Below, piece by piece: positions 30,031 through 48,125 of a stretch of 64,000 bases of DNA (positions are counted from its first letter, which is position 1; every line of letters begins with the position of its first letter). The translations under genes and the position numbers were made by a program. The notes beneath the pieces were generated by a model. The model searched no databases. It was not told the origin of the DNA and was given only the letters and a program-made list of their open reading frames with translations. Source of the stretch: Pseudomonadota bacterium (GTDB taxonomy: Bacteria; Pseudomonadota; Gammaproteobacteria; Xanthomonadales; Ahniellaceae); contig JALHNO010000001.1 of assembly GCA_022843465.1 (NCBI GenBank), positions 260,787 through 324,786 of the forward strand. Reading direction: 5' to 3'.

Positions 30031-30788
30031 TTACTGGCGGCGGCTGTAGGCACCAAAGCCGATCAGACCCAGGCCGAGGAAGGCCAGCAGCATCAGACCA
30101 CGAGCGCCTTCGCCCAGGGCCGGAACCGGGATCGCGGGCGCGCCGGTGGTGCCGGTCAGGTCGAAGGTGAACAGCTGGGCGCCGGCCGAGCAATCGAGCA
30201 CGCCGAGGAAGGTGCCGCTGACCAGGCTGGAGTAGGTGATCGTGGTGCTCGCCGATCCCCCGGCAGGTACCGTGAACATCAGTGGGGCGACGGTGAACTG
30301 GGTTGCCACCGGTGCGGTGCAGGTGACATCCACCGGTACCAGTCCCGGATTCTGGAAGGAAACCGGCGCCGTGGTGGCCGGGCCGCCAAACGACTGCATC
30401 GGCATCGTGATCAGTGAACCCGAGGCCGGCGTGGAGGTGAGCGGGGTCGCGGTGCCTGCCGGGCAGCTGAGCTCGAAGGTGCGCACGACCGGCGTGCCAC
30501 CCTGATTCTCGCTGCAGGTCAGCGTCTGGGTCACGACGGCCGCACCCAGCGTACAAGTTCCTGACAACGGACCGCCGCTGATCGCGCCAGCACCCTCAGC
30601 CGTGACCGACTGACCAAAGCCCGAGAAAGGCGCGGTCGGCGCAGTGCAGGTGGTGGTCGTGGTATTGGCGGCACCGGTGCCCGAGCCGGGCGTGCCGATG
30701 CTGACATCGATCGAGCCGTTGGCCGTCGAACCAATCGCGCCACCGCCGGTAAAGGACACGGTTCCCATCGGGGCCGGGTTGTAAGCAA
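30031..30788. repeat. Long direct repeat, copy 2 (C-terminal coding region)
   Basis: Partner of 27670-28427. It covers the last ~250 codons of the single-P-domain protein. The similarity stops where the two proteins' different N-terminal domains begin. Confidence 0.7.
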
Positions 30789-31368
30789 AGACAGGTGGTG
30801 CATCGCCGGAAACATCGAGGTCGGCGGTGACGCTCCAGCTGGTCAGGTTGCCGAGATCCGCGGCCGCGCGATCGCAGACCGTAAGGGTGAACGTGCCCGG
30901 TGTGGCCAGGCCATTGAACGCAGTCAGCACATCGATCGGCTGACAGGTCGGGCCGGGCGGGGTCACGCAGTTGGCCGCTGTACCGCAATTGGTTACATCG
31001 GAACAAAGCAGGGCTGCGTCGCTGTCGACCAGGGCGTTAAGATTATCGCCGCTGCCATCAACGTTATTGACCAGGCGCACCGTGCCGCCGCCGCCGGTGT
31101 AGCTCAGGCCCACCTGGATATCCGAGCGCCAGGTCTGGGTCAGTTCGAGCGTCACATCGATGTCGGTGATCGTGCCCACTTCAGTGAACGCGATGGTGCG
31201 CGAGATCCCGCCCAGGCCGGTGCCATTGGTATCGTCGGTACAACCGTTGTCCGGAAGGACTGGAGTCGCTGCAGCATCGGTATTCGTTACAGTGGTGGTG
31301 CCGGCGCTGACCAGGCCGGCAGCGCCGAGGCCTGCGGCCAGCAACGCAACAGTGGTCGATTTGGACAT
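30031..31368 (-). CDS. Secreted protein with one P-domain-like region and IPTL-CTERM tail
   Basis: 445 residues from ATG 31368, preceded by GGGGAG. The signal peptide is STTVALLAAGLGAAGLVSAG. Residues about 30-190 form a P-domain-like beta sandwich (FTEVGTITDIDVTLELTQTWRSDIQVGLSY, DNLNALVDSDAALLCSD, PGTFTLTVCDRAAADLGNLTSWSV) with several cysteines. The remaining ~250 residues closely match those of the upstream-numbered paralogue and end in IPVPALGEGARGLMLLAF, a hydrophobic run and RRQ, i.e. an IPTL-CTERM-type signal. It is probably displayed on the surface after exosortase processing. The two paralogues seem to share a modular C-terminal anchor region joined to different display domains. Confidence 0.75.
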   Translation of the reverse strand: MSKSTTVALLAAGLGAAGLVSAGTTTVTNTDAAATPVLPDNGCTDDTNGTGLGGISRTIAFTEVGTITDIDVTLELTQTWRSDIQVGLSYTGGGGTVRLVNNVDGSGDNLNALVDSDAALLCSDVTNCGTAANCVTPPGPTCQPIDVLTAFNGLATPGTFTLTVCDRAAADLGNLTSWSVTADLDVSGDAPPVFAYNPAPMGTVSFTGGGAIGSTANGSIDVSIGTPGSGTGAANTTTTTCTAPTAPFSGFGQSVTAEGAGAISGGPLSGTCTLGAAVVTQTLTCSENQGGTPVVRTFELSCPAGTATPLTSTPASGSLITMPMQSFGGPATTAPVSFQNPGLVPVDVTCTAPVATQFTVAPLMFTVPAGGSASTTITYSSLVSGTFLGVLDCSAGAQLFTFDLTGTTGAPAIPVPALGEGARGLMLLAFLGLGLIGFGAYSRRQ

Positions 31369-31579
31369 GAGCAACTCCCCAGGGTGGACGTTGGATCTGA
31401 ACGGTGAATGAAGCGGAGGGCGAAACAATTGCCTTCGCATCCTAACCCACCCCCAAAGTCATGGCAATAACAAGTTGATCTCATTCGGAATTCACTGTCC
31501 CGTCCCGCTCTGGCACGGCATCCGCGATGGGCCCCGCTATCATGGTCGCTGAACTGGCTGGGTCGAGGTAGGCACAAGC

Positions 31580-35250: not shown

Positions 35251-36918
35251 TCAGACGGCCTGCCTGCGACGAATGACCGCGAACGCACCCAGTGCGATCA
35301 GCACCATCAGTGCTGCCGCGATCAGGCGACCCCACTCTCCCAGAGTCGGAACCGCAGTCGGCGGAGCGCCGGCCGTGATTGTGACCACCGTCGGGTCGGC
35401 GCCGCCGCCGACGGCCGGATCATCCGTGGTGGCGCTCGACTCATTGCTGCCATTGCCGTCACCGTCGAACGAGATCGTGCCCTGATTGCTGATCGCGCCA
35501 GTAAAGAAAGGCGAGATGGTGGCGGTGATCGTGATCGTTACCGAACCTGCGCTGGCGATGCTGCCATTCCATGTGACCGTGTTGGTGCCGATCGTGGCGA
35601 CCGCCGTTCCGGAGGTTGCACTTGCCGAGACCAGACTCAGCGAAGCCGGCAGCACGTCGGTGAACTCGTCGCCCGGATTGTCGCCCTGCGGACCGGTGCC
35701 ACCGTTATTGAGCACGATGGTGTAGGTCAGGGTGCTGCCGGACAGGAAGCTGCCCGCGGCGGTCTTGGTGCCGGTGACATTTGCTGCGAGCGCGGCAGTC
35801 AGCGTATTGGAATCCGTTGCCGAGTTATTGGCGGGATTGACTTCGATGACACCGCCGATGCCGGTAACCGTGGCCGTGTTGTCAAGTGTACCGGTGGCGC
35901 CAGAATTGATCGGGCACTGCGCGGTATACGTCACCGATCCGCCGTTCGGCAGGTTTACGGTGTCATTGATATTGCCGGCACCGTTGGCCGCACAAGTACC
36001 GCCACCGGCGCCCACGCAGGTCCAGGTCGGGCTGACACAGGCTGCCGGGAAGGTATCGGCCACGGTGGCGCCATTGACGTCGTTCGGACCCGCATTGCTG
36101 GCGGTGATCGTGTAGGTCGTCGTCGAGCCAGCGGGCACGCTGGCCACGCCATCGGTCTTGGTGATGCTGAGGTCGGCCATCGCGCCGCCATCAAGTGCGC
36201 AGGTACCTGCGGTAACCGCTACGGATACCGTGTACGGGCCCGCCGGGCCGGGAGGAGTTGCGCCGGTCGAGTAGCCATCCACGACGATGAAGTAGTCGGT
36301 GCCCGCGATGGCATCGAGAGAAACCGACTCTGCTACGCCGCCCACACCGGTGTCGTCAACGCAGGCGCAGTCGCTGAGCGAGCTGGAGCACTGGGTCTGA
36401 TACGCGATCAGCGCCATGTCTTCGGCTCCGGTCGGGTCCATCGTGATGTTCAAGGTGCAATTTGCCGTGGTGCGAATCTTGTAGGCAAAATCCGGTGCGG
36501 TGCCGGTGCCGGTGTAGATGGCACCACGTGGCAGCGAGCCCGCTGGTCCGGCGCCGGTACAGGTGGACGAGGCCGTGCAGGTCGGCGCGGTGGTATCGGC
36601 CGGCAGATCATAGTCATCGACCAGGCCAACTGTCGTTCCCGCAGCGTTGAACGGGAAGGTGCCGGTTTCAAAGGTCGCTGCCGGGCAGGTGTCATTGCCG
36701 ATGTTCGGCTCGGGCGGTGCTGCGGCGGCGCGTTCCGCCATCCACTGCGCCAGACGGATGCGGCGTTCTTCGAGCTGCTCAGGCGTAAGCTGATCGGCGA
36801 TGGCCTGCTTGATACGCACCTGATCGAGGTACGCCTCCCATCCTGCCACCTGTGCTTTCGCAATGCTGCTTAGGCCTGCAGCGAGGCCAACACCCACCAA
36901 TATCCTGCCGATCTTCAT
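35251..36918 (-). CDS. DUF11-repeat surface protein with IPTL-CTERM tail
   Basis: 555 residues from ATG 36918 with GGGAGAG upstream; the longer frame has no signal peptide at its start. After the signal peptide (ILVGVGLAAGLSSIAKAQ) comes a helical segment, then a cysteine-rich domain resembling bacterial pre-peptidase or pentraxin-like sandwich modules (NCTLNITMDPTGAEDMALIAYQTQC, TDYFIVVDGYSTG). Two DUF11 beta repeats follow (DLSITKTDGVASVPAGSTT, NVTGTKTAAGSFLSGSTLTY). The tail PTLGEWGRLIAAAL plus a hydrophobic run and IRRRQ is a canonical IPTLxxWG-CTERM signal. DUF11 proteins are large surface adhesins or wall-like structural proteins; this is a short one. It is the third IPTL-CTERM substrate in 10 kb. 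Confidence 0.8.
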   Translation of the reverse strand: MKIGRILVGVGLAAGLSSIAKAQVAGWEAYLDQVRIKQAIADQLTPEQLEERRIRLAQWMAERAAAAPPEPNIGNDTCPAATFETGTFPFNAAGTTVGLVDDYDLPADTTAPTCTASSTCTGAGPAGSLPRGAIYTGTGTAPDFAYKIRTTANCTLNITMDPTGAEDMALIAYQTQCSSSLSDCACVDDTGVGGVAESVSLDAIAGTDYFIVVDGYSTGATPPGPAGPYTVSVAVTAGTCALDGGAMADLSITKTDGVASVPAGSTTTYTITASNAGPNDVNGATVADTFPAACVSPTWTCVGAGGGTCAANGAGNINDTVNLPNGGSVTYTAQCPINSGATGTLDNTATVTGIGGVIEVNPANNSATDSNTLTAALAANVTGTKTAAGSFLSGSTLTYTIVLNNGGTGPQGDNPGDEFTDVLPASLSLVSASATSGTAVATIGTNTVTWNGSIASAGSVTITITATISPFFTGAISNQGTISFDGDGNGSNESSATTDDPAVGGGADPTVVTITAGAPPTAVPTLGEWGRLIAAALMVLIALGAFAVIRRRQAV

Positions 36919-37077
36919 TTCTGACTCTCCCGCCAATGAGTTGAATGTGTGATGCGCAGCACCCTTACGGCGCCTCGAGTTCCCAGCCCGAACGCCGAGT
37001 TTATCCTTCATTAACAATCCTGCCAATAGTCACGTCGGCCCACCGAGGACCTCCGTGCAGCCCTGAATCACTCGGTT

Positions 37078-37171: not shown

Positions 37172-39220
37172 ATGTCCAATACTCTCGTTGATTCCGATCT
37201 GCGTCGCTGGCTGGGCGGCTTGTTCGTGCTGTGCGCAGTCGCCGCCTGTGCCGCCCCGGAGTCCCCTGACCTGGTTCTGATCAGTCTGGACACAGTGCGT
37301 GCCGATGCGTTCAGAACTGTTGCAAAGCACAATCCCGTGCTGCGCGACCTGGTGGCCGATTCGGTCGGATTCCGTGCGGGCTCGACGCCAACGCCACTGA
37401 CCTTGCCTGCCCATGTCTCGTTGATGAGCGCGCTCGATCCGAACCGGCATGGTGTACGCAACAATGGCCAGCGACTCGGTGAAGCGCCGACCCTGCTGGC
37501 CGAGCGGCTGCGCGATGCCGGTTATGCCACCGGTGCCGTGGTAAGTGCTTTCCCGCTGGACCGGCAATTCGGTCTCTCGCGCGGCTTCGCTCACTACGAT
37601 CAGCCAGCGGCGCCGTCAGCAATGAACTCTGACTTTGTGACACTGGAGCGCGGCGCGCATGAATCGGTTCAGAGTGCGGTCAATTGGTTGAGCGAACATC
37701 CCGAGCGCGCCTTTCTGTGGCTGCATCTGTTCGATGCCCATGCCCCCTATGCTGCACCCGGAGCTGATCGCGCAGGATCGCCACGCGAGCGCTATCTTGC
37801 CGAGATCGACTACATGGGCCGCGCGCTCAAGACTCTGATTGATGCGCTGGAGAACCGCGGCCGGCCCTTTGTTCTGGTCGTCGTGGCCGATCATGGCGAG
37901 GGACTGGGGGACCATGATGAGCTGGATCATGGTCTGCTGCTTTATGACAGTACCTTGCTGGTACCCATGTACTGGTACGCGCCCGAGCACTGGAAGCCGC
38001 GCCAGATCGATCAGGTTGCGCGCCTGATCGATGTTGCCCCGACCCTGCTGGAAATCGCCCGTGCAGAACCACTGGAAGCGGTCGACGGGGTCAGCCTGCT
38101 GCCGCTGCTTGAAGGCAAGGCGATGCAGCTGCCGGAAGCCTATGCCGAGACCTACTACCCAAGCCTGGCCTACCATCGCCAGCCGCTGCGGAGCATTCGT
38201 TCAGGTCAGTGGAAATCGATCGGCACCATCGACGTCGCGGAACTGTTCGACGTCTACGGTGATCCTGCTGAAACCATCGATCAAGCCGGCGAACACGTGG
38301 AGCGCCTGGCTGCTCTGCAGCTGCAGGCCTGGAACCGTCCCGAACCCACTGCACCCGAGGCAGCGCGCGCGGAGGCTGCGCGCGCCCTGCAGGGACTGGG
38401 CTATCTTGCGGCGGGCAGCAGCTCCAGCGTCCCGCTTGGACATCCGGGCGAAGTTGTGGCATCGCACCGGCGACTGGTCGAACTGCAGAATCTGATGGCG
38501 GAAGGCGATGGTGATGCGGCACTGGCGGCTGCCCAACGGCTGGTCGTGGACGAACCGGACAATGGCTTTGCGGCCTATGTGCTGGGTGCGCTGCTGCTGG
38601 ATCGCGGGCAGATGGCCACCGCCATTGTTTCATTGCAGCGCGCGGTTGAACTGGACCCGACCAATCCGCAATCGCGCTTCAAATTGGCCGAATCGCTGCT
38701 GAGGAGCCAGCGCTTTCTCGACTCGCTGCCGCACTGGCAGGCTCTGGAGCTACTGGACCCCGAACGCGTTGCCGTCTGGACCAATGAGGCCGCGGCGCTG
38801 GCCGCGCTAGGCAACTGGAAAGAGGCGCACATTGCGAGCCAGCGCGGACTGGAACTTGCGCCGGACGACGTGACCGCACTGGACAATGCTACGGTCATTG
38901 CCGAGCGCCTGGGCCGCTGGGAGGAAGCATCGACTCTGCTCGTTCGGCAGGCAAGCCTTGAAGGAGAGAGCTTTCGGCAACTGGGTCGATTGAGCCTGCT
39001 GCTGGCGCGTGCAGGGCAGTATGAACAGGCACGCAGGGTCGCGGACAAAGTCGAGCCGACCGCCGCCGATCATCCTCTGGCGGAATTGGCGCGTGCCCTG
39101 GCCTGGCACCATCAGGGCAAGATTGACCAGGCACAATCGATCATGCGCAGTCTGCACTCCGCCAGCCCACAGCTGCACGCGCTGGCACTGCGCCAGTTCC
39201 CTGAGCTGAAAGGTGATTGA
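37172..39220 (+). CDS. Sulfatase-superfamily lipoprotein with C-terminal TPR repeats
   Basis: 682 residues. The N-terminus has a hydrophobic signal with a weak lipobox (V23-A24-A25-C26). The alkaline-phosphatase-superfamily core is clear: LISLDTVRADAF (metal Asp40), LTLPAHVSLMSALDPNRHGVRNN with Thr77 as probable nucleophile, and VVVADHGEGLGDHDELDHG for the second metal site. The nucleophile motif is not C/SxPxR, so formylglycine maturation is not expected; Thr nucleophiles occur in phosphotransferases of this superfamily. Residues about 430-682 are TPR units (AYVLGALLLDRGQMATAIVSLQRAVELDP). It acts in the periplasm or on the outer membrane; substrate unknown. It is a paralogue of the convergent gene at 39258-41084. 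No clear ribosome site precedes ATG 37172. Confidence 0.75.
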   Translation: MSNTLVDSDLRRWLGGLFVLCAVAACAAPESPDLVLISLDTVRADAFRTVAKHNPVLRDLVADSVGFRAGSTPTPLTLPAHVSLMSALDPNRHGVRNNGQRLGEAPTLLAERLRDAGYATGAVVSAFPLDRQFGLSRGFAHYDQPAAPSAMNSDFVTLERGAHESVQSAVNWLSEHPERAFLWLHLFDAHAPYAAPGADRAGSPRERYLAEIDYMGRALKTLIDALENRGRPFVLVVVADHGEGLGDHDELDHGLLLYDSTLLVPMYWYAPEHWKPRQIDQVARLIDVAPTLLEIARAEPLEAVDGVSLLPLLEGKAMQLPEAYAETYYPSLAYHRQPLRSIRSGQWKSIGTIDVAELFDVYGDPAETIDQAGEHVERLAALQLQAWNRPEPTAPEAARAEAARALQGLGYLAAGSSSSVPLGHPGEVVASHRRLVELQNLMAEGDGDAALAAAQRLVVDEPDNGFAAYVLGALLLDRGQMATAIVSLQRAVELDPTNPQSRFKLAESLLRSQRFLDSLPHWQALELLDPERVAVWTNEAAALAALGNWKEAHIASQRGLELAPDDVTALDNATVIAERLGRWEEASTLLVRQASLEGESFRQLGRLSLLLARAGQYEQARRVADKVEPTAADHPLAELARALAWHHQGKIDQAQSIMRSLHSASPQLHALALRQFPELKGD

Positions 39221-39257: not shown

Positions 39258-41084
39258 CTATTTCGGTAGCCGCGATAGCCTTGCCCGGGCCTGGCGGCCT
39301 ACGCGTTGTGCATCAATCTGCAGCGCCATCTGATAGGCGGCGCGAGCCGCCGCTACATCCCTCGCCACCACGGCGAGATCGCCCCGCACGATCCATACGC
39401 CACCGTGCCGCGGGTCCAGTCGCATAGCCTCCGCAATCAGATCGCTTGCCTCGTCGGTACGCTGCCCCATGACCGCCAATTGCGCCTGCAGCAGCAGGGA
39501 GTCGGCGTTCGGCCGCACCGCATTTACCTGTGTGATATCGCGTATCGCCTCTTCGGTTCGGCCCAGGCTGGCCAGCAGGCGTGCGCGAAGATAGAGGGCG
39601 CCGCGAGCGTGCGGGACCTCTTCGAGTGCGCTATCAAGATGAGCGACGGCTTCCGCCAGCCGGCCTGCGGATGCCGCCTCGGCAGCCTGCTGATGCGCGG
39701 CGACCAGGGTCACGGCATCCTTCGGGTCGCTGAGCTCACCACCGAGCTCCGACCCGGAAAGATAGCCCAGCGAGCGCAGCCGCTCGATCACCGAAGCGTC
39801 CTGGACATCGGCAGTGTCAGGCTCCGCATCGACGGCTGGCCATCCCAGCAGGTGGGCGCCAAGCAACTCCGAGAGCCGCGCTGCCTCGGCATCATGGGCG
39901 GCGCCTGCTTCGAGCAGATTGCGCAGCTCCGACGGATCGGTCGCAAGTTGATAGAACTCAGGGCGTGGAGCTTCGATGTACTTGCCCGTTTCAGTGCGCA
40001 GGGCGTGCAGGGAGGACAGTCGAAAATCGAAATACGGCAGCGTGGTTTCCATATATACCGACTGCCCATGTGCCCGAGCTGACCGCAGCAGGCTTTGGCC
40101 ATCGATGTCCGCGAGCGGGTCCACGCCGAGTGCGTCCAACACCGTCGCAGCGAGGTCGACCTGACTGACCAGTGCCGGTGAATGCCGCGGCCGCAGTCCT
40201 GGCGCGGTGATGATCCAGGGGATCGCCACCGTGCTGTCATAGACGAACAGTCCGTGCGTGCGTTCGCCGTGCTCTCCCAAGCTCTCGCCATGATCGGCAA
40301 GCAGCATCACCAGACTGTCGTTCCAATCCACATTGGTGGACGCCAGGAGCCGACCTATCTGGCGATCGATCTCGCTGATCTCGGCCACATAACGCTGTTC
40401 ATCACTGGCGTCAGCGCTCAGATCGTGACCCAGGTAAGGCGCATGGGCATCAAAATAATGCAGCCACAGAAAGAGTGGCTGCTCTTGTTTGTGTGCCTTC
40501 AAGTAGGTCAGCGCGGCTTCGGTGACCTCCGACGCGCTGCGTTCGTTGCCACTGCTGGCAAATGCACCGGCGAGTGCGGAGACATGGTCGTCGTAGTGTT
40601 CAAAGCCCTGGGCGAGGCCGAATCGGCGATCGAGCACGAAAGCGGAAACGAACGCTGCTGTCTGGTATCCCTCGACGCGCAGCGCTTCAGCCAGCGTGGA
40701 TTGCTCGTCGGCGAGCTTGCGCTCACCGTTGTAGCGGGCACCGTGTCGCGGCGGGTAGCGGCCGGTCATCATGCTGGCGTGCGCGGGCAGAGTGACGGGT
40801 GCCACGGCCAGTGCCTGATCCAGCCGCAGGCCACGGGCGCACAGGAGATCGATATTCGGCGTAGGCGACGGCCTCTTGCCATAGCAGCCGATATGGTCGC
40901 GCCGGGTGGTGTCCAGGGTGATCAGCACGACATCACGCCCGCGCGCGGAGCCGGGCGCGATCGCCATCACCGCATCGGGATCCGGGCCTGGCTGACAGCC
41001 GGCAAGAGAAATCAGCAGCAGGCTGGCGCCGATGCCGAACCGCTTGCTTCTTCGTTGCGGCAAAGTGTAACGCGGCGTAGTCAT
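39258..41084 (-). CDS. Sulfatase-superfamily lipoprotein with C-terminal TPR repeats, last gene of a four-gene operon
   Basis: 608 residues. The start ATG 41084 lies in the ATGA overlap with the upstream gene and gives a good lipobox (L27-A28-G29-C30); longer readings of the frame antisense or overlap other genes and lack a signal. Core motifs are VVLITLDTTRRDHIGCYG (Asp58), VTLPAHASMMTGRYPPRHGARYN (Thr98 as probable nucleophile) and LLADHGESLGEHGERTHGLFVYD. Like its neighbour it lacks the formylglycine motif. Residues about 430-608 hold TPR-type helices (EAIRDITQVNAVRPNADSLLLQAQLAVMG). It likely transfers or removes a sulfate, phosphate or phospho-alcohol group on an envelope polymer or lipid. 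Confidence 0.78.
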   Translation of the reverse strand: MTTPRYTLPQRRSKRFGIGASLLLISLAGCQPGPDPDAVMAIAPGSARGRDVVLITLDTTRRDHIGCYGKRPSPTPNIDLLCARGLRLDQALAVAPVTLPAHASMMTGRYPPRHGARYNGERKLADEQSTLAEALRVEGYQTAAFVSAFVLDRRFGLAQGFEHYDDHVSALAGAFASSGNERSASEVTEAALTYLKAHKQEQPLFLWLHYFDAHAPYLGHDLSADASDEQRYVAEISEIDRQIGRLLASTNVDWNDSLVMLLADHGESLGEHGERTHGLFVYDSTVAIPWIITAPGLRPRHSPALVSQVDLAATVLDALGVDPLADIDGQSLLRSARAHGQSVYMETTLPYFDFRLSSLHALRTETGKYIEAPRPEFYQLATDPSELRNLLEAGAAHDAEAARLSELLGAHLLGWPAVDAEPDTADVQDASVIERLRSLGYLSGSELGGELSDPKDAVTLVAAHQQAAEAASAGRLAEAVAHLDSALEEVPHARGALYLRARLLASLGRTEEAIRDITQVNAVRPNADSLLLQAQLAVMGQRTDEASDLIAEAMRLDPRHGGVWIVRGDLAVVARDVAAARAAYQMALQIDAQRVGRQARARLSRLPK

Positions 41085-41863
41085 ACCAGCTTCCAGCGCC
41101 AGCGCAGCCATAGCGACAGCACGGTCATTACCAGCAGAAAAGGCGCGATCCAGCCGCGCAGCCAGTCGGGACCAAACGGCAGAATCTGCAGCGTGGGCAG
41201 TTGAAACCGGATCAGATCGATCTCTCCTCCGGCCGGCAGATAGCCCAGCGGATTGCCAAACGCCCGGTTCCACCAGCGACGCTGATGGATGACGGGGATC
41301 GCCGAGGTCAGTGGCAGTTCGATCAGGGCGGTATCGTTTGCGACCAGCGCAGCGCCTGGCTGTGATTTCGGCCACCGGAGCTGTCGGCAGCCGGCAGCGT
41401 CCGGGGCGCCCATCCAGTTGACGCCGCGGGCCTGCAACTTGGCGGCAACGGCATGCGGTTCGACGCAGATCGAGACGAGTTCATCTGGCGCCGGTTGCGC
41501 GGCATCGAATTGGTTGGACATCCACGACAGCAGAAACAACAGCGGCAGCGCAACCAGCAGGGACGGCCACAAGGTCATCCAGACCTGGGCAGCACCGAGG
41601 CGCAGGCTGTGACCCGAGCGTCGCAGCAGTTCGCCAAAACCAATGTCGTCGACGAGCATCTGCTGCTGCGAAGCGCGCAGGCGGCGCCGCAAGGCCTGCA
41701 GGCGTCGCTGCCGAGACAGGCGCGCATACAGCCACATGCCGAGCCAGGCGGCGAGCACTGCGTACAGCAACACCCGAGCCAGCACGGGCAGAGCGGTCGC
41801 GAGCAGCCGATCGATGCCGTCGAGCAACGGGGCGGCAAGATCAAAAAAGCCGGCGTCGCTCAT
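41081..41863 (-). CDS. Three-helix membrane protein with EMC3/YidC-like topology
   Basis: 260 residues; ATG 41863 overlaps the stop of the upstream phosphodiesterase gene (ATGA) and its own stop overlaps the next start. Topology read from sequence: TM1 (VLARVLLYAVLAAWLGMWLYA); a basic coiled coil (RQRRLQALRRRLRASQQQM); TM2 (LLVALPLLFLLSWM) reached through a tryptophan-bearing amphipathic entry; a roughly 110-residue extracytoplasmic domain with two cysteines; then TM3 (WIAPFLLVMTVLSLWLRW). The TM-coil-TM-TM plan recalls the Oxa1/EMC3/DUF106 insertase superfamily, where the coil binds the substrate or ribosome. This is shape-based and not proven by motif. Its place between two envelope hydrolases or transferases suggests a partner that assembles or anchors them. 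Confidence 0.55.
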   Translation of the reverse strand: MSDAGFFDLAAPLLDGIDRLLATALPVLARVLLYAVLAAWLGMWLYARLSRQRRLQALRRRLRASQQQMLVDDIGFGELLRRSGHSLRLGAAQVWMTLWPSLLVALPLLFLLSWMSNQFDAAQPAPDELVSICVEPHAVAAKLQARGVNWMGAPDAAGCRQLRWPKSQPGAALVANDTALIELPLTSAIPVIHQRRWWNRAFGNPLGYLPAGGEIDLIRFQLPTLQILPFGPDWLRGWIAPFLLVMTVLSLWLRWRWKLV

Positions 41864-43812
41864 GGTGAGTCCTGCGTTGGGCGGGCGTCGTCGACAATCA
41901 GCCTGGAAACATCCGCGATGCCGTCGATGGACAAGGCCGGCTGGAAATTGCTCATCAGGATTCCCGGTACCAGGGCGCTGTCCACGCAATGGTCGCCGCT
42001 CCAGTTCTGCAGGTTGTCATCGATCAGACTCGTGGGTGCGGCGCCCAGTGTCGTCTGCCACGAGGCTCGATAGCCGGAGGCGTAGCCGAGCACCAGGTCA
42101 GGCCTGTGGCCGTCGGCTGCACTCGGGTAAATGTCATCGGCATCGTGCACGGCGGCGAACACCGGGCTGCCGTCCTGATCGCGCCAGCCCAACAGCGCGC
42201 TCGCCAACTCGGTCTTGAGTGCGGCCATGTCGCTGGCTTCAACCACGCCCTGAGATTCGCGGCCGCGACGATTGACAAAGAGGCTATTGAGACCGAGTGC
42301 GTAGGCGCGTGACCGCGACCAGTCGACACCGTCAAACAGATTGCCCGCCAGCTTGTGCTCCGGCTTGAGCGTCAGATAACCATGCTCGATCAGCCAGCGG
42401 TTGATATGGACCGCACGCCGGAAACTGGTGAATCCGTGGTCACTCAACACGATCAATCGATCGTCGGGTCCGAGCCGGCTCTGGATCTCGCCAAGCACAC
42501 GATCCGATTCGCGATAGATCCAGGCGATGGCGTCACGCGCGAGCAGGCTGCTCTGCGCGTGCAGTGGATGTTCCTTATCAAGGCCGCGCCAGAACATGTG
42601 ACTGACCCGGTCCGGTTGCACAAAAACCTTGATCACCAGCTCACTGTCGCCGCGATCGAGGCTGTCGTAGAGCATCGCCTCGCCTTCGCCCAGCGTGGTC
42701 GCCACCATATCGAGCCAGCCCTGCTCGTCCATATGACCCTGGTTGAACGCCCAGGTTTCCTCGGGCATGCCGAGCGTGTGAAAGCGTCCGATCCGCATCG
42801 CCAGAGCGGTAGCAGCATGTTCGGGTGCGCTGACTTGAAAGGCGGGATCCAGTGGATCGACCTGGGCCGGGCTGACATAGAGCCTGAGCTTCGGGAATCC
42901 GGAAATCAGGCGCAGCCGAACCATGCCGGGAATCCGGCCGACGCCCAGAAACCGGTAGCGCATCGGGATCCACTCGCTCCAGTCGCCCGTGCTCAACTGG
43001 GCCCGCACGCCATCCAGCTCCACTACGACTTGCGAAGGCTCAGGGGTTCGAATGATCCGGATCGGTAACGCCAGCGAATCGCGGGGATACAGAGGGTGCG
43101 CCGGCCCCGGGACACTGGCGGTGATGTTGCCGTCCTCACCCGCAGCCTGCAGCACAACATGACCTCCGCTCTCCGCGGCCGGCACCAGATGGTTGGCGAT
43201 CAGCGTATAGCTGCCTTGGGTGCCGAGGAGATCGGGCACGCCCATGCCGGAAATCATCTGTTGGACCGGCTCGGGCGGAAACGTCACCGGCACGCGCATC
43301 ACGCTGGCGCGCTGCCCGGTGGCTTCGGCCGTCGACCAGAAGCTGGTACCGGAACGACCGCTGTCCAGTTTTGCGTCGCCAAGCGGCAGGGTCATGCCGA
43401 GAAAGTCGACGGTCTCCACCGGCTCGCTGCGTGCAATCGAAAACTCGGGCGCATAGTGCTGGGCGTCCCGATGCAGAAAATCAAAGATGCCATGCGCGCC
43501 CGGATCAAGCCCGGTCGCAAAGCTCGACCAGGCCACCGGCGACTGCGCCGGCTCGGTGCTGGCTAGCTTCTGGTAATGACCCTGGGCTTTCAATGCTGCG
43601 AAATGCGGCAGAGCACCGGCGACCATCCAGCGCTCCAATAAAGCCGGGTCCATGCCATCAAAGCCGATCACCACGGTGCGCTGCTTGGCCTTGCTACCGG
43701 GCGCTGCCGTAAGCAGTTGACGCTCGTGCCACTTGCTGTAGCCAAGGGCCGCGAGTGCGACCACCACCAGCCCGGCCAACAGAGAGCGAAGCGGCCGCAC
43801 GTCTGGTCTCAC
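41860..43812 (-). CDS. Type I phosphodiesterase / nucleotide pyrophosphatase-family protein
   Basis: 650 residues from GTG 43812, which overlaps the stop of the preceding small gene (GTGA). The open frame continues far upstream to 45189, but that part is antisense to the sulfotransferase and is rejected. One N-terminal transmembrane helix (LLAGLVVVALAALGYS) anchors a periplasmic domain: TVVIGFDGMDPAL (metal Asp), QSPVAWSSFATGLDPGAHGIFDFLHRD (nucleophile Ser or Thr, probably S91), VFVQPDRVSHMFWRG and LIVLSDHGFTSFRRAVHINRWL with the second metal site. This is the alkaline phosphatase-like family of membrane phosphodiesterases. Substrate is unknown; the operon suggests an envelope glycolipid or polymer. 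Confidence 0.78.
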   Translation of the reverse strand: MRPDVRPLRSLLAGLVVVALAALGYSKWHERQLLTAAPGSKAKQRTVVIGFDGMDPALLERWMVAGALPHFAALKAQGHYQKLASTEPAQSPVAWSSFATGLDPGAHGIFDFLHRDAQHYAPEFSIARSEPVETVDFLGMTLPLGDAKLDSGRSGTSFWSTAEATGQRASVMRVPVTFPPEPVQQMISGMGVPDLLGTQGSYTLIANHLVPAAESGGHVVLQAAGEDGNITASVPGPAHPLYPRDSLALPIRIIRTPEPSQVVVELDGVRAQLSTGDWSEWIPMRYRFLGVGRIPGMVRLRLISGFPKLRLYVSPAQVDPLDPAFQVSAPEHAATALAMRIGRFHTLGMPEETWAFNQGHMDEQGWLDMVATTLGEGEAMLYDSLDRGDSELVIKVFVQPDRVSHMFWRGLDKEHPLHAQSSLLARDAIAWIYRESDRVLGEIQSRLGPDDRLIVLSDHGFTSFRRAVHINRWLIEHGYLTLKPEHKLAGNLFDGVDWSRSRAYALGLNSLFVNRRGRESQGVVEASDMAALKTELASALLGWRDQDGSPVFAAVHDADDIYPSAADGHRPDLVLGYASGYRASWQTTLGAAPTSLIDDNLQNWSGDHCVDSALVPGILMSNFQPALSIDGIADVSRLIVDDARPTQDSP

Positions 43813-44033
43813 GGAGCCGCAGAATCGCGCAGTGCGCGCTGCTTGCGACGGCGTTTGAGCCAGGCGCGCACTGGCCAGGCCAGGATGGCGCCGATGACGA
43901 CCACGATGCTGACCAGAACCGAGATCAGCGCACTGAAAAAGCTGATACCGGAGCCGGGCCCGCTGTAGGCTTGCGTCGATAGCGCCACCAGAGACAGTGT
44001 CAGCACTGCCAGGACCCTTGCAAACACGTGCAT
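43809..44033 (-). CDS. Small exported membrane protein with GPGSG motif, first gene of the operon
   Basis: 74 residues, ATG 44033. A signal peptide (LAVLTLSLVALSTQA) leaves YSGPGSGISFFSALISVL followed by a transmembrane helix (VSIVVVIGAILAWPVRAW) and a very basic tail (LKRRRKQRALRDSAAP). Tiny proteins with a YxGPGxG start and a Trp-Pro-rich helix occur in my recollection near sulfatase/phosphodiesterase genes, but no function is known. It overlaps the phosphodiesterase gene by four bases (GTGA) and so probably sets translation of the whole operon. 73 bases separate it from the divergent sulfotransferase gene, where the promoter must lie. Confidence 0.65.
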   Translation of the reverse strand: MHVFARVLAVLTLSLVALSTQAYSGPGSGISFFSALISVLVSIVVVIGAILAWPVRAWLKRRRKQRALRDSAAP

Positions 44034-44106
44034 ACCGTAATTCCCCTGATCGAAAGACCCAGAGTATATCGGCGGAACGCCCGTAGCCTGGCAGCCCGGC
44101 GCAAAG

Positions 44107-45207
44107 ATGATGTCCGCGGGCGCTGACTGGAAGCTGCCGTGGCCGGATCGCTTCGGCGTGTTCTGGCAACGGACCTGGCCGCGACTCGGACCGTGGCTGG
44201 CGCGTCAGGAGAACCGGCTGCTCGCCGATGAGATCGCGACCACGGCGCTCGATCGTCCGGTTTTCATCGCCGGCTTGCCACGTTCGGGCAGCACCATCCT
44301 GCTGCAGATGCTCGCGACGGCGCCGGGATTTACCGCCCAGCGCTATGCCGATCTGCCCCTGCTGTGGACGCCTTACGCGTGGAACTGGCTGTTGCAGCGT
44401 CTGCCGCTGGGCTCGGCGGCGGTGGTCGAGCGTTCGCATCGTGACCGCGTCCTGGTCAACCGGGACAGCCCGGAGGCACTCGACGAGCCGCTCTGGCAGC
44501 ACTTCTTTCCGTCTCTGCACCAGGAGCAGCAATCCGAATTGCTCGTGGCCGAGCTTCAGCACCCGGCCTTCGAGTCTTTCCTGCGGGCGCACATGGCCAA
44601 GTTGCTGCGGGTACGCGCGGCGCGCCGCTACGTTGCCAAGAGCAACTACGGGCTGCAACGCCTGGCCTATCTCGGACGATTGTTTCCGGATGCGCGCTTC
44701 GTTGTGCCCTACCGTTCGCCACGTGCGCATCTGGCCTCGTTGCTGAAGCAGGAGCAGCTGTACGCCGGTGCGCCGGACCGCGTGCTTCGACACATCGGTG
44801 CGATCGGCCATCACGAATTCGGTCGCCAGCGGCGCATCCTGCATCTGGGCGACAGCGAATTGCTGGCGCAGCTGCGCGCCGAGTTCGCTTCCGGCAATCT
44901 GGCGCAGGCCTGGCTGCGTCTGTGGATCCGCGCCTACGCGCTGATGCTGGACACCGCGGCCGGCGATGCGCAGCTGGCGGCACGCATACACCGGGTAGAC
45001 TATGAACGCCTCTGCGCTGAGCCCGGCGCCAGCTTGGACAGCCTGTTCGAGCACTGTGCTGTTGAGGTCGCAGATCGGCCGGCGCTGGTGTCCGAATGGC
45101 AGCCGCGCCTGAGTGCACCGGATTACTATCAGGCGGCCCTGCCCGACTCGATCGACCCGGAGCTGTGGCGGCAGGCGGATGCGCTGCATGCCCGCCTGCA
45201 GAAATGA
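44107..45207 (+). CDS. Sulfotransferase family protein
   Basis: 366 residues; ATG at 44107 and 44110, without a strong ribosome site. The 5'-phosphosulfate-binding loop for PAPS is clear (FIAGLPRSGSTILLQML, G56-S62), followed by the 3'-phosphate region in RRYVAKSNYGLQRLAYLGRLFPDARFVVPYRSPRAHLASL, with the conserved Arg-Ser pair. Such enzymes move sulfate from PAPS to hydroxyl or amino groups of carbohydrates, lipids or peptides; related bacterial Sulfotransfer_3 members modify surface glycolipids. It is transcribed away from an operon containing a sulfatase-like gene and a phosphodiesterase, suggesting that the region makes and edits a sulfated envelope molecule. Confidence 0.8.
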   Translation: MMSAGADWKLPWPDRFGVFWQRTWPRLGPWLARQENRLLADEIATTALDRPVFIAGLPRSGSTILLQMLATAPGFTAQRYADLPLLWTPYAWNWLLQRLPLGSAAVVERSHRDRVLVNRDSPEALDEPLWQHFFPSLHQEQQSELLVAELQHPAFESFLRAHMAKLLRVRAARRYVAKSNYGLQRLAYLGRLFPDARFVVPYRSPRAHLASLLKQEQLYAGAPDRVLRHIGAIGHHEFGRQRRILHLGDSELLAQLRAEFASGNLAQAWLRLWIRAYALMLDTAAGDAQLAARIHRVDYERLCAEPGASLDSLFEHCAVEVADRPALVSEWQPRLSAPDYYQAALPDSIDPELWRQADALHARLQK

Positions 45208-45236: not shown

Positions 45237-48125
45237 TTACTCGGCAACCTCGACACGATTGCGGCCGTTGGCCTTGGCGCGATAGAGCGCGGCATCGGCG
45301 CGACGGATCAGATCCTGTGGCTGCTGCGAATCAGCTGCAGCGGAAATCATGGCGACACCGATGCTGACGGTTATGCCGCCCGCCTTGACGGCGATGTCTG
45401 CCCGCAGTTGTTCGGCCAGCGCCGTCGCGGCATCGAGCTGGTGATCGCGACACAGCACGGCGAATTCCTCGCCGCCGAAGCGTGCCACCAGGATCGTGCT
45501 GCGCGCCACCTCGGCCAGCTGCTGGGCGACATCGCGCAGCACGGCATCACCGGCCAGATGGCCGTGGCGATCGTTGAATTCCTTGAAGTGGTCGACATCG
45601 ACAAACAACAGGGCAAGCGGAAAGGCCTCGGCCTGCGCCATCCACTCGCTCAGCACCTGATCAAAGCGGCGACGGTTGGCGACGCCGGTCAGGCCGTCGA
45701 GTTCGGCGAGATCGCGCAGGAGCCGGTTGGCATGCGCCAGCTCCTCGGTGCGCAGTGCGACCTGGGCATCCAGCTCGACGTGGCGCCGATCCATTGCCCG
45801 CATCTGGCTGCGATGGCGGAAACTGATCAGGCGGGCGAATCCCAGCAGGATCAGCGCCGCCATCAGCGCCTGTACCCAGGATCGCTGATACCAGTGCGGA
45901 AGCTTTTCGATCGCGACGGTGGGCAGCCCGAAGATCACCCCCGGACCGCGCTGCGCGCGCGCCTCGAAGCGATAGCTGCCGTGCCCGAGTTCGGCGTAGT
46001 GAAAGCTGGCAACAGGCGCCCATTCGCTCCACTCGTCGGCCAGACCCTGCATGCGCACCTGGAACGAGGGCGGTGGTCCCGGTCCATAATCGGTGAGTCC
46101 GAGTTCCAGATTCAGACTGCCCTTGCCTGCGGGAAGCACGAGTCGATCACCCAGTGGCAGGCTGCGCGCCGGTTGCCCCGGCACTTCAAGACTGATCCGC
46201 GACAGCCGCAGCGCACCCGGCTTGCGGTCCTCGGCAATGGCTGCGTAGCGATAACGGATCAGGCCGGTGCTGGTGGCGACATATCCGCCGTCAGCTTCGG
46301 CGAGCAGGGTATCGATCACACCGCCCTCAGTGGGTTCCAGCGGAACCAGAAACCAGTCGCCCTGTTCACCGCGGCGATAGACCGAATCGTAACCAAAGGC
46401 GAGCAGACCTTGGCGACCATCGCTGACGATGCGCAATGTGTCGCCAGCGCGCTTGAGTTGCGCCAACCCGGACATATCCGCTCCGACAAAGCGGTCGCCT
46501 TGCCAGACATGCAAACCCTGCGGCGTACTTGCAAACCACTGATCCTGGTACTCGAACAGAAAGGTTTCACCAACGTCGCCAGTGCTCAGGCCGTCGGCTG
46601 GCCCAAGTGCACGCGCCTGCCGCAGCTGACCGTTCTGCGGATCAAGATCGATGCGCCACAGTCCGCGATCGGCGCTGCTGACCAGCAAGGCATCGGCCGC
46701 GAGTTCGGTGATGCCGGTGACGCGGATGTTCAATTCGTCGTGGTGTGCCAACACGCGCCAGCCATCCACGCCCTTGTGCGCCAGCGCCAGTCCGACCTCG
46801 GTGCCAATCCACAATCGTGCCGGATCGAATCTGGAGGGCAGCAATTCCCGCGGGTACAGATCGGACGGGCCGATCCGCGAAGTTTTTCCTTCGGTGTAGG
46901 CGTACAGGGCGTGGGCTTCGGCGAACAGCAGCGCGTCGTCATCGACCAGCAGGTTCCAGACATCCTGATCGGCACCGGGCAGACGCGCGAAAGCGGATAT
47001 CGCGCCATCGTCCGTCCTGCGCGCGCCGAACACCCCGCTGTAGCCGACCGCCAGCAAGCGCTCATCGTCGGCAATCAGTCGGCGCACACCGCCGAATCCG
47101 ATGCTGTCGTCGGCCAGATTTTCGAGCACCGGCGGCCAGTGCAGCCGGCTGATCGCCTGATCGCTGAGCACGAGCAGGGCGCCGTCCAGATCATGCTTCA
47201 GACCCGACTGGAACGAGGTGTCGAGCGCGATCTGGCGGAGCCCGCCGCTGGTCGGATCGTAGATGCGCAGAATGCCATCGTCGCCGGCAATCGCAATCTC
47301 GCCGTTGCGCAGAGCCAGCAGATGCTGCAGTCGGAGGTGCAGCGCGGCGTCAGCAAGAAACGGCGCCTCACGATGTTGACCGTTCTCGACGATCACCAGT
47401 CCCGGTCGGCGATCGACCGCGAGGAAGCTCTGCGCATTCAGCTCGATCGCATCGATCAGCATATGCTGACCGAAGAAAGGATCCTCGCTGAAGCGCTCCA
47501 GTTTGCCGGCGACCAGGCGGTACAGCCCGTCATCGCGACGCTGGATCAACAGCTCGCCGGCGAATACGAACACCGCACCGAAGCGGCCCTGATGCTGAAA
47601 ATACCCGGTGCGCTTGCCGCTCCGCGGATCGATCACGAACAGCTCACGCAGCGAGCGGAACACCAGACCCTGCGGAGACTCGATGATGCCCCAGGTATCG
47701 GGGAAACGCGCAGGGCCGAGCACGTCATCGAACTGGCCACTGACATCGATCACGCGATCGGAGCCATCGGCCTGACGTTCCAGAAAACCGAACCAGCCGC
47801 TGCCGCCCGCCCAGAGCCGGCCGTGGCTGTCGCGCTGCAATTGCCGGACCGGACCCGGGCGCGGAACCTCCAGTCGCAGCCAGCGCTGTCCGTCATGGCG
47901 CAGGATGGCGTTCTTGCTGCCGACGTACAGCAGTCGATCCGACGCCTGTTCAATCGCAAAGAACTGGGGAAATGTCTGGCTGTCGTGCGCGATCCGTCGG
48001 GTCAGTGGCCCGGAGGCCCAAAGCGCCGGCGCGACCAGTGCCAGCGCCGCGAGCAATGCAGCGAAGACGAAGCGTGTCCGGGGCTTGCCGGCTGTGCTCC
48101 CGATGCGGGCCATATGGCTGGGCAA
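45237..48125 (-). CDS. Diguanylate cyclase with periplasmic two-component-type beta-propeller sensor
   Basis: 962 residues. TTG 48125 has AGGGGA 7 bases upstream, a better site than ATG 48113. A signal anchor (FVFAALLAALALVAPALWA) is followed by a propeller of about 600 residues (blades such as RDSHGRLWAGGSGWFGFL, PDTWGIIESPQGLVFRSL), a Y_Y_Y-type Ig module (LNLELGLTDYGPGPPPSFQVRMQGLADEWSEW), one TM helix (WVQALMAALILLGFARLISF), a coiled coil and a GGDEF domain: DLAELDGLTGVANRRRFD, VDVDHFKEFNDRHGHLAGD, then RFGGEEF. GGEEF is a competent active site. The I-site position five residues before it reads RSTI instead of RxxD, so product inhibition should be lost. It should make c-di-GMP in response to a periplasmic ligand. 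Confidence 0.85.
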   Translation of the reverse strand: MPSHMARIGSTAGKPRTRFVFAALLAALALVAPALWASGPLTRRIAHDSQTFPQFFAIEQASDRLLYVGSKNAILRHDGQRWLRLEVPRPGPVRQLQRDSHGRLWAGGSGWFGFLERQADGSDRVIDVSGQFDDVLGPARFPDTWGIIESPQGLVFRSLRELFVIDPRSGKRTGYFQHQGRFGAVFVFAGELLIQRRDDGLYRLVAGKLERFSEDPFFGQHMLIDAIELNAQSFLAVDRRPGLVIVENGQHREAPFLADAALHLRLQHLLALRNGEIAIAGDDGILRIYDPTSGGLRQIALDTSFQSGLKHDLDGALLVLSDQAISRLHWPPVLENLADDSIGFGGVRRLIADDERLLAVGYSGVFGARRTDDGAISAFARLPGADQDVWNLLVDDDALLFAEAHALYAYTEGKTSRIGPSDLYPRELLPSRFDPARLWIGTEVGLALAHKGVDGWRVLAHHDELNIRVTGITELAADALLVSSADRGLWRIDLDPQNGQLRQARALGPADGLSTGDVGETFLFEYQDQWFASTPQGLHVWQGDRFVGADMSGLAQLKRAGDTLRIVSDGRQGLLAFGYDSVYRRGEQGDWFLVPLEPTEGGVIDTLLAEADGGYVATSTGLIRYRYAAIAEDRKPGALRLSRISLEVPGQPARSLPLGDRLVLPAGKGSLNLELGLTDYGPGPPPSFQVRMQGLADEWSEWAPVASFHYAELGHGSYRFEARAQRGPGVIFGLPTVAIEKLPHWYQRSWVQALMAALILLGFARLISFRHRSQMRAMDRRHVELDAQVALRTEELAHANRLLRDLAELDGLTGVANRRRFDQVLSEWMAQAEAFPLALLFVDVDHFKEFNDRHGHLAGDAVLRDVAQQLAEVARSTILVARFGGEEFAVLCRDHQLDAATALAEQLRADIAVKAGGITVSIGVAMISAAADSQQPQDLIRRADAALYRAKANGRNRVEVAE

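Follow-up and report, generated by a model that had tools for sequence, protein, structure and literature searches.

Why should a small membrane protein shaped like an insertase be encoded together with a phosphodiesterase, and next to a sulfotransferase? The question is raised by six genes in a 64,000-nucleotide stretch of a gammaproteobacterial genome of the order Xanthomonadales (this whole stretch is called the window here). Four of them lie on the minus strand and encode, in order, a small membrane protein (A), a phosphodiesterase-like enzyme (B), a membrane protein with three transmembrane (TM) helices (C), and a lipoprotein-like enzyme of the alkaline phosphatase (AP) superfamily with tetratricopeptide repeats (TPR) (D). 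On the plus strand, a sulfotransferase gene (F) diverges from A, and a gene for a second lipoprotein-like AP-superfamily TPR protein (E) converges on D. The reading that we prefer, to which we give a probability of about 0.45, is that these genes encode an envelope complex acting on sulfated or phosphorylated head groups, with an Oxa1-like protein as its membrane subunit.

The central protein is C (positions 41081–41863, minus strand). Family scans say little about it: a Pfam scan of A and C gave nothing over the cut-off, and an NCBIfam scan of A, B, C and F gave no family over the cut-off. A profile was made from 55 of 58 candidate C sequences together with the window's C, and compared with the sequences in the PDB. 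It matches archaeal MJ0480 (5c8j) with an E-value of 1.2e-10, the next match being at 0.064. The match spans TM1, a coiled coil and TM2, and continues weakly but collinearly in TM3. When MJ0480 was shuffled within three segments, no trial scored above 9.2 bits, against 42.5 for the unshuffled sequence (500 trials, 495 scored), and the gamma-side rows of the C alignment on their own still score 41.3 bits (best shuffle 11.0). No YidC chain in the PDB matched the profile at E up to 10, EMC3 and TMCO1 chains are absent among the sequence matches, and the Pfam family EMC3_TMCO1 (PF01956) matches neither the window's C nor the C of a planctomycete locus (L144), with 0 matches in the window's own genome at E up to 10.

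The AlphaFold model of C is confident (predicted local distance difference test score, pLDDT, 93.3). It has helices at residues 27–49, 52–71, 76–119 and 239–256, and contains three TM helices, TM1 and TM2 being separated by a coiled coil, and TM2 and TM3 by a β domain of about 100 residues. With this model Foldseek gave no match under E 0.8. VIA placed chain 8 of the multipass translocon (7tut_8) at the top, with Z 11.4, 137 aligned residues and a root-mean-square deviation of 3.4, the next Z being 7.4; with helical folds a Z-score below about 13 may arise by chance. From its length (177) we take this chain to be TMCO1. The spacing of a proline pair in TM2 is 7 in both C and MJ0480, and 6 in YidC2. 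As set out in a passage of PMC8675477, the Oxa1 superfamily has a three-TM core with a coiled coil or helical hairpin between TM1 and TM2. C has such a core with its coiled coil, and it has sequence homology to the established member MJ0480; what it does not have is the five-TM core of YidC proper, since the model contains three TM helices. C is very probably a bacterial three-TM protein of the Oxa1/YidC superfamily. An earlier note on this locus, made from the sequence alone, had called it EMC3-shaped, and the profile match to MJ0480 with its shuffle control bears this out.

With what does C work? A scan with an alignment of B gave 86 relatives, of which the best 80 correspond to 80 loci; all counts are within the locus DNA examined, and many contigs are short. 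A and C are each present in 59 of these loci, D in 45 and F in 39. The 52 loci grouped as proteobacterial (unclassified HR40 included) have C in 44, F in 39 and both in 35, and the remaining 28 have C in 15 and F in 0. The gene order A-B-C is common, and fusions occur on both sides of B. A is continuous with B in a single open frame in 23 of the 80 loci, from Phycisphaerae and other Planctomycetota, Kiritimatiellota, Eiseniibacteriota, Woeseiaceae and related gammaproteobacteria, and one Omnitrophota record. B and C share one in seven (L101, L108, L110, L073, L103, L104 and L106). A full C is fused to B in two Alphaproteobacteria (L101, L108) and in HR40 (L110), with C matches of E 1e-70 to 1e-81, and in Tahibacter soli (L073) the fused C has lost its β domain and kept the three-TM core. 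In Alcanivoracaceae (L103, L104, L106) the C fused to B is weak and degenerate, and a normal standalone C is also present; the tail in L111 is similarly weak. The fusions and the recurrence together indicate that the membrane proteins A and C belong with the phosphodiesterase B, and not to unrelated families, as the earlier note had allowed that they might. A, B and C are very likely subunits of one complex.

In the three Alcanivoracaceae loci the standalone C gene is followed by a B gene with a second, C-like tail from which the middle of C is absent, an arrangement that suggests C–C′ pairs. C is recorded in Pseudomonadota, Planctomycetota, Kiritimatiellota and Eiseniibacteriota, and a quick tree, rooted at the midpoint and with one long branch flagged, separates a planctomycete-side from a proteobacterial-side branch. 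Thirteen loci from Planctomycetota (L117, L122, L133–L137, L141, L143–L147) have two successive B genes: B1 is fused to A, lacks a further TM helix and is thereby predicted to be cytosolic, and B2, which mostly has a lipoprotein-like start, is usually followed by C. In Acidobacteria and in a second Omnitrophota record an anchor of a related type, with the sequence Y-I-D-P-G, was recognised by eye ahead of B. No relative of B was found in viral_contigs with a single-protein query. Plasmid carriage of C was considered and rejected, the plasmid search giving one partial match only (Paroceanicella profunda, 34% coverage).

B (41860–43812, minus strand, with a GTG start codon at 43812) belongs to PF01663 (E 9.6e-32). 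It is predicted to have one N-terminal TM helix and a large β-rich insert (model pLDDT 92.9). VIA aligned the model with the Xac nucleotide pyrophosphatase/phosphodiesterase (NPP) 2gsn_A (Z 26.8 over 331 residues) and with phosphonoacetate hydrolase 1ei6_D (Z 26.5 over 356). The B alignment was made from 60 of 89 candidates and the window's B, the alignments of A, F and the other proteins of the order being from subsets of loci. Across its 61 sequences D52, D401, H405, D458, H459 and H608 are invariant, and S91 is kept in at least 90%; by alignment with NPPs we take the former to be metal ligands and S91 to be the nucleophile. On sequence and model, B is a predicted NPP-type phosphodiesterase or transferase of the AP superfamily, with a putative two-metal site.

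A (43809–44033, minus strand, 74 residues, as given by the open reading frame listing and translation) has a signal-peptide-like start, a Y-x-G-P-x-x-G motif, one further TM helix and a basic tail, and represents an ‘AYIGPGAG’ family. The motif, Y23 included, is invariant in 23 A sequences.

The window's own genome has a second B gene (G000:C1:205563-207428, locus L162), which scores 1011.6 bits with the B profile, compared with 992.9 for the window's B. It is convergent with another AP-TPR gene, and A, C and F were not found in the 17 kb of DNA examined there. Secreted-type proteins with CTERM-like tails (VPTLGEWG..., IPVPALG...) are encoded near both B loci, in the window at 35254–37026 and 30037–31458 (minus strand) and at L162:11880-12785.

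Is the association of these genes a local accident? Within the window the genes are tightly packed. A and B overlap by GTGA (43812–43809), B and C by ATGA (41863–41860), and C and D by ATGA (41084–41081), while 73 bases (44034–44106) separate A from F and presumably carry the promoters for both directions. The earlier note had these positions, overlaps and orientations right. It took the overlaps to imply a fixed stoichiometry; four-base overlaps suggest translational coupling instead.

A survey was made of 250 genomes of the order, including the window's own. C was found in 34 of them, in seven families (f1, f4, f7, f8, f9, f10 and f12). B, counted at E up to 1e-100, is present in 32 genomes and F, counted as strong at E under 1e-100, in 31; at these thresholds neither occurs in a genome without C (Fisher p 2e-38 and 2e-36, respectively, uncorrected for phylogeny). 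C occurs without B in G025 and G113, and without F in these two and in G112; the C match in G113 is weak (E 1.3e-8), and that in G025 spans 110 of 260 residues. Six genomes with weaker matches to F (3e-52 to 5e-67; G007, G018, G035, G086, G165 and G180) were left out of the F count. Theirs are different sulfotransferases, and at the thresholds used they have neither B nor C. The genes also occur together when they are not linked. In G010 the pair A and C and the pair B and F lie on separate contigs. G082 has C and its closest B relative on different contigs, and a weaker B relative about 7 kb from C. F lies about 16 kb away in G037, and B and F about 10 kb away in G027. Few genomes of the phylum have C (9 of 398, including the window's own).

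In the 33 other loci of the order, several of which stop at contig ends, A is found in 30, B in 29, a D-type gene in 21 and F in 28. The set is thus not unique to this genome, a possibility that the earlier note had left open, and recurs in seven families and outside the order. What does not carry over is the exact arrangement: the order of genes varies (F divergent from A-B-C with D beyond F; D-B-F-A-C; F-A-C-B), the four-base B-C overlap is found in 10 of the 33 loci, and the exact C-D overlap is not general. In G062, from the same family as the window, E, D, F, A, B and C are adjacent (L036), and the relative of E there is 52% identical. At about 4137–4586 of L059, from G025 and thus from the window's genus, a 45-residue piece of F abuts a 106-residue piece of C, with no match to A or B. 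Either most of the cluster was lost together here, or the two pieces were brought together in assembly.

What chemistry do the neighbouring enzymes offer? F (44107–45207, plus strand) belongs to PF13469 (E 1.6e-20). The earlier calls of a phosphodiesterase for B and a sulfotransferase using 3′-phosphoadenosine 5′-phosphosulfate (PAPS) for F both hold at the level of family. Among solved proteins the nearest relatives of F are the tyrosylprotein sulfotransferases TPST1 (E 3e-12) and TPST2 (E 8e-9). The 5′-phosphosulfate loop (RSGTT-like) and the 3′-phosphate motif are kept in 18 sequences and align with TPST1. F is a predicted PAPS-dependent sulfotransferase (Sulfotransfer_3), and its likeness to TPSTs points to PAPS chemistry rather than to the acceptor. 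A GGDEF protein with weak propeller matches is encoded convergently with F (45240–48125, minus strand), and L163 has a further GGDEF gene close to B and F.

D (39258–41084, minus strand) and E (37172–39220, plus strand) both match PF00884 and TPR. The signature of formylglycine sulfatases is Cys/Ser-x-Pro/Ala-x-Arg. In D the aligned nucleophile is Thr (T98), within the motif T-L-P-A-H, and the same motif can be read in the sequence of E. In the D family 61 sequences were entered and 59 have a residue in this column, which is Thr in 57 and Cys in 2; this count replaces a pattern search that had missed 11 D-like open reading frames. The earlier description of D and E as sulfatases is correct as regards membership of PF00884 but not as regards activity, and Thr at the nucleophile position rules out formylglycine sulfatases. 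TPR ‘sulfatases’ of this group, missing the sulfatase nucleophile, are likely to be misannotated. Phosphoethanolamine transferases use a Thr nucleophile. In transferases of the EptA/LtaS type the catalytic domain is preceded by an N-terminal domain of several TM helices. B, in contrast, has a single helix at its N-terminus, and D and E have short lipoprotein-like N-termini.

A link to sulfate is suggested by the co-occurrence of F within the order and by genes of CysD or CysN type beside B in Acidobacteria and Victivallales. In six loci of these groups such a gene lies on the same strand upstream of B (L120, L121, L123, L124, L131 and L142), in L124 with one unlabelled frame in between. The CysN of L142 is below the TIGR02034 cut-off, and the CysD of L121 is above that of PRK05253 and below that of TIGR02039; the remaining labels come from clustering, in which neighbour clusters of four loci or more were looked at. 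Similar genes are found near B in L100, L112 and L129, and the window's own genome has an adenosine 5′-phosphosulfate kinase. The machine handling sulfate or phospho groups that the earlier note had imagined is partly supported as regards sulfate, the link being weakened by loci that have A-B-C and no F and by B lineages that lack C and mostly also PF13469; its target, an envelope polymer or glycolipid, is something that we also can only infer. In L120, L121, L124, L142 and similar loci from Acidobacteria a B with the Y-I-D-P-G-S anchor follows CysD/CysN, and a gene of AMP-ligase type recurs downstream. This looks like a separate branch of B without C.

On the basis of these observations we hypothesise a single inner-membrane complex made up of A, B and C. 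In it C would provide a membrane groove, with its β domain on the outer face, and A would be a small TM subunit tying B to the membrane and to C. B would work as an NPP-like two-metal enzyme with a serine nucleophile, situated in the window's group on the periplasmic face. In this group cytosolic F would use PAPS to sulfate a membrane-bound acceptor, which may be a lipid head group, a lipid-linked molecule or a membrane protein. Through the Oxa1-like groove of C the modified head group would reach the outer face, where B would cleave or transfer a phosphodiester, and D and E, as AP-type enzymes with a Thr nucleophile, would act downstream on the product. The kinship of C with Oxa1, the families of B, D, E and F, the linkage of A, B and C, and the co-occurrence of F in the order are strongly supported. 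The substrate and acceptor, the groove and the passage of head groups through it, the sides of the membrane and the order of steps are what we infer. Insertases may scramble lipids, according to a passage in PMC13261788, which makes the idea of a groove in C plausible, no more. A wider generalisation can be made, though it is doubtful: that a three-TM Oxa1 branch of archaeal/ER (endoplasmic reticulum) type, so far overlooked in bacteria, has left protein insertion to become the membrane subunit of an enzyme complex, and that its groove exposes or carries sulfated or phosphorylated lipid-linked head groups to a tethered NPP-type transferase. Oxa1 proteins would then be a chassis for envelope chemistry.

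Several observations weigh against the preferred reading. The 15 planctomycete-side C rows alone give 14.0 bits against MJ0480 (E 0.22), which is not significant, so that it is gene context and their similarity to the C profile that support the kinship of these proteins. The A-B fusion of Phycisphaerae lacks a further TM helix and B1 is predicted to be cytosolic, beside a B2 with its own signal; the topology of the complex is therefore not uniform. Nor is C obligatory for B: no C match was found in 11 of 11 genomes of Acidobacteria, Victivallales, Omnitrophota and Nitrospirae type that have B, with an A-like anchor or alone, and the genomes of L094 and L126 also have B without a C match, so that C is present in 5 of the 18 genomes searched (which may be incomplete). 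F is absent from 9 of 44 proteobacterial C loci and from all 15 of the others, many contigs being short. Of the 15 planctomycete-side genomes searched, 12 encode a PF13469 protein, but the loci themselves have no match to the F profile, and PF13469 was not found in five of six tested B genomes lacking C, though most of these have CysD/CysN beside B. Finally, there is no glycosyltransferase among about 38 neighbouring proteins picked for Pfam scans (a selection of the neighbours, in four sets of 10 proteins that include two B- or C-like ones). The one sugar-precursor enzyme among them is a UDP-glucose/GDP-mannose dehydrogenase in L100, beside the CysD/CysN-type genes, and a polysaccharide cluster was rejected as an explanation.

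The head-group reading must also be set against what is described of the superfamily, whose members figure mainly as insertases in passages of PMC8675477 and PMC13261788. C could accordingly be a dedicated insertase or membrane chaperone of the EMC3/TMCO1/MJ0480 kind, with A and B, or a few envelope proteins, as its clients; its three-TM and coiled-coil architecture and the MJ0480-like proline spacing have indeed been kept. However, a general insertase would not be expected to be fused to B or to co-occur with one enzyme and one sulfotransferase, and B with an A-like anchor exists in genomes that have no C match. We therefore consider this alternative unlikely. TMCO1 is also described, in PMC12385146, as a calcium channel. 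A unit for scavenging or nucleotide clearing, in which B hydrolyses phosphodiesters or sulfo-nucleotide by-products and D and E hydrolyse esters, with CysDN and F reflecting sulfur metabolism, would suit the fold of B, which is closest to NPPs and phosphonoacetate hydrolase. It would also suit the Acidobacteria, where CysD/CysN stand beside B mostly without a sulfotransferase of the PF13469 family. This explanation seems improbable, as it leaves the Oxa1-type C, the A-B and B-C fusions and the co-occurrence of F unexplained.

It has a still smaller chance of being right that the system modifies or sorts proteins, with F sulfating a tyrosine, for example in A, or with the complex handling tail-anchored proteins of the IPTL-CTERM kind. 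The nearness of F to tyrosylprotein sulfotransferases and the invariant Y23 of A are what one would look for in the former case, but this tyrosine has no acidic neighbours in the order and is kept in lineages without F. For the latter, CTERM-like proteins are found beside some loci, and IPTL-CTERM occurs in 30 of 34 C-bearing and in 95 of 216 other genomes; the window's own genome has three IPTL-CTERM matches over the cut-off and no exosortase match at E up to 0.001. Phylogeny is a confounder of the association between IPTL-CTERM and C, and the 95 genomes with IPTL-CTERM and no C imply that C is not required for IPTL-CTERM. Exosortase/CTERM sorting was rejected as the main function because of these genomes and because PF09721 has no match in the window's own genome. 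A chance neighbourhood of unrelated genes in one lineage would fit the C-D overlap, which is not general, and four-base overlaps are common in bacterial operons. Recurrence, fusions and the co-occurrence of distant genes speak against it, and for A, B and C it is refuted, leaving it a negligible probability.

What do these findings add? Archaeal, ER and five-TM bacterial members of the superfamily are described in passages of several papers (PMC8675477, PMC8887752, PMC9630114, PMC13261788, PMC7618853). In one of these the bacterial insertases have five TM helices and the archaeal and ER members three, and the ancestral core is left open (PMC7618853); in another the ER membrane protein complex (EMC) is said to lack obvious bacterial homologues (PMC13261788). 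The open-access literature, with most subscription papers and all bioRxiv preprints outside this scope, gave no description of the gene set or of a bacterial EMC3-like protein, in agreement with the earlier note, to which no system of this composition was known. The joining of an NPP-type enzyme to an insertase-like protein likewise seems to be undescribed. A bacterial three-TM member found in four phyla bears directly on the question of five-TM or three-TM ancestry. If C serves an enzyme and not nascent proteins, this would show that the Oxa1 fold can take on another role, perhaps the movement of lipid head groups; A-B-C gives a small complex in which such repurposing can be tested.

Compared with known systems, C is closest to MJ0480 (DUF106, YidC-like) and to EMC3 and TMCO1, which like C have three TM helices with a coiled coil between TM1 and TM2. 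C differs from them in being bacterial, in having the β domain of about 100 residues, and in the association of its gene, in some loci by fusion, with that of an NPP-type enzyme. The YidC/Oxa1/Alb3 insertases are connected with C at the level of the superfamily through the weak match of MJ0480 to YidC2 (E 0.022), but have five core TM helices where C has three. B shares the fold, the metal-ligand pattern and the nucleophile position of the NPP and phosphonoacetate hydrolase branch, and is distinguished by Ser at that position, the large β insert, the A-type anchor and the partner C. D and E have the catalytic domain family of PF00884 sulfatases, EptA and LtaS, with Thr in place of Cys/Ser, a TPR tail, a lipoprotein-like start and no multi-TM domain. 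Finally, F has its 5′-PAPS and 3′-phosphate motifs in the same order as TPST1 and TPST2, to which its kinship is remote. It can also be compared with RaxST, a bacterial sulfotransferase of tyrosylprotein type, and differs from all three in occurring with A, B and C in the window's order.

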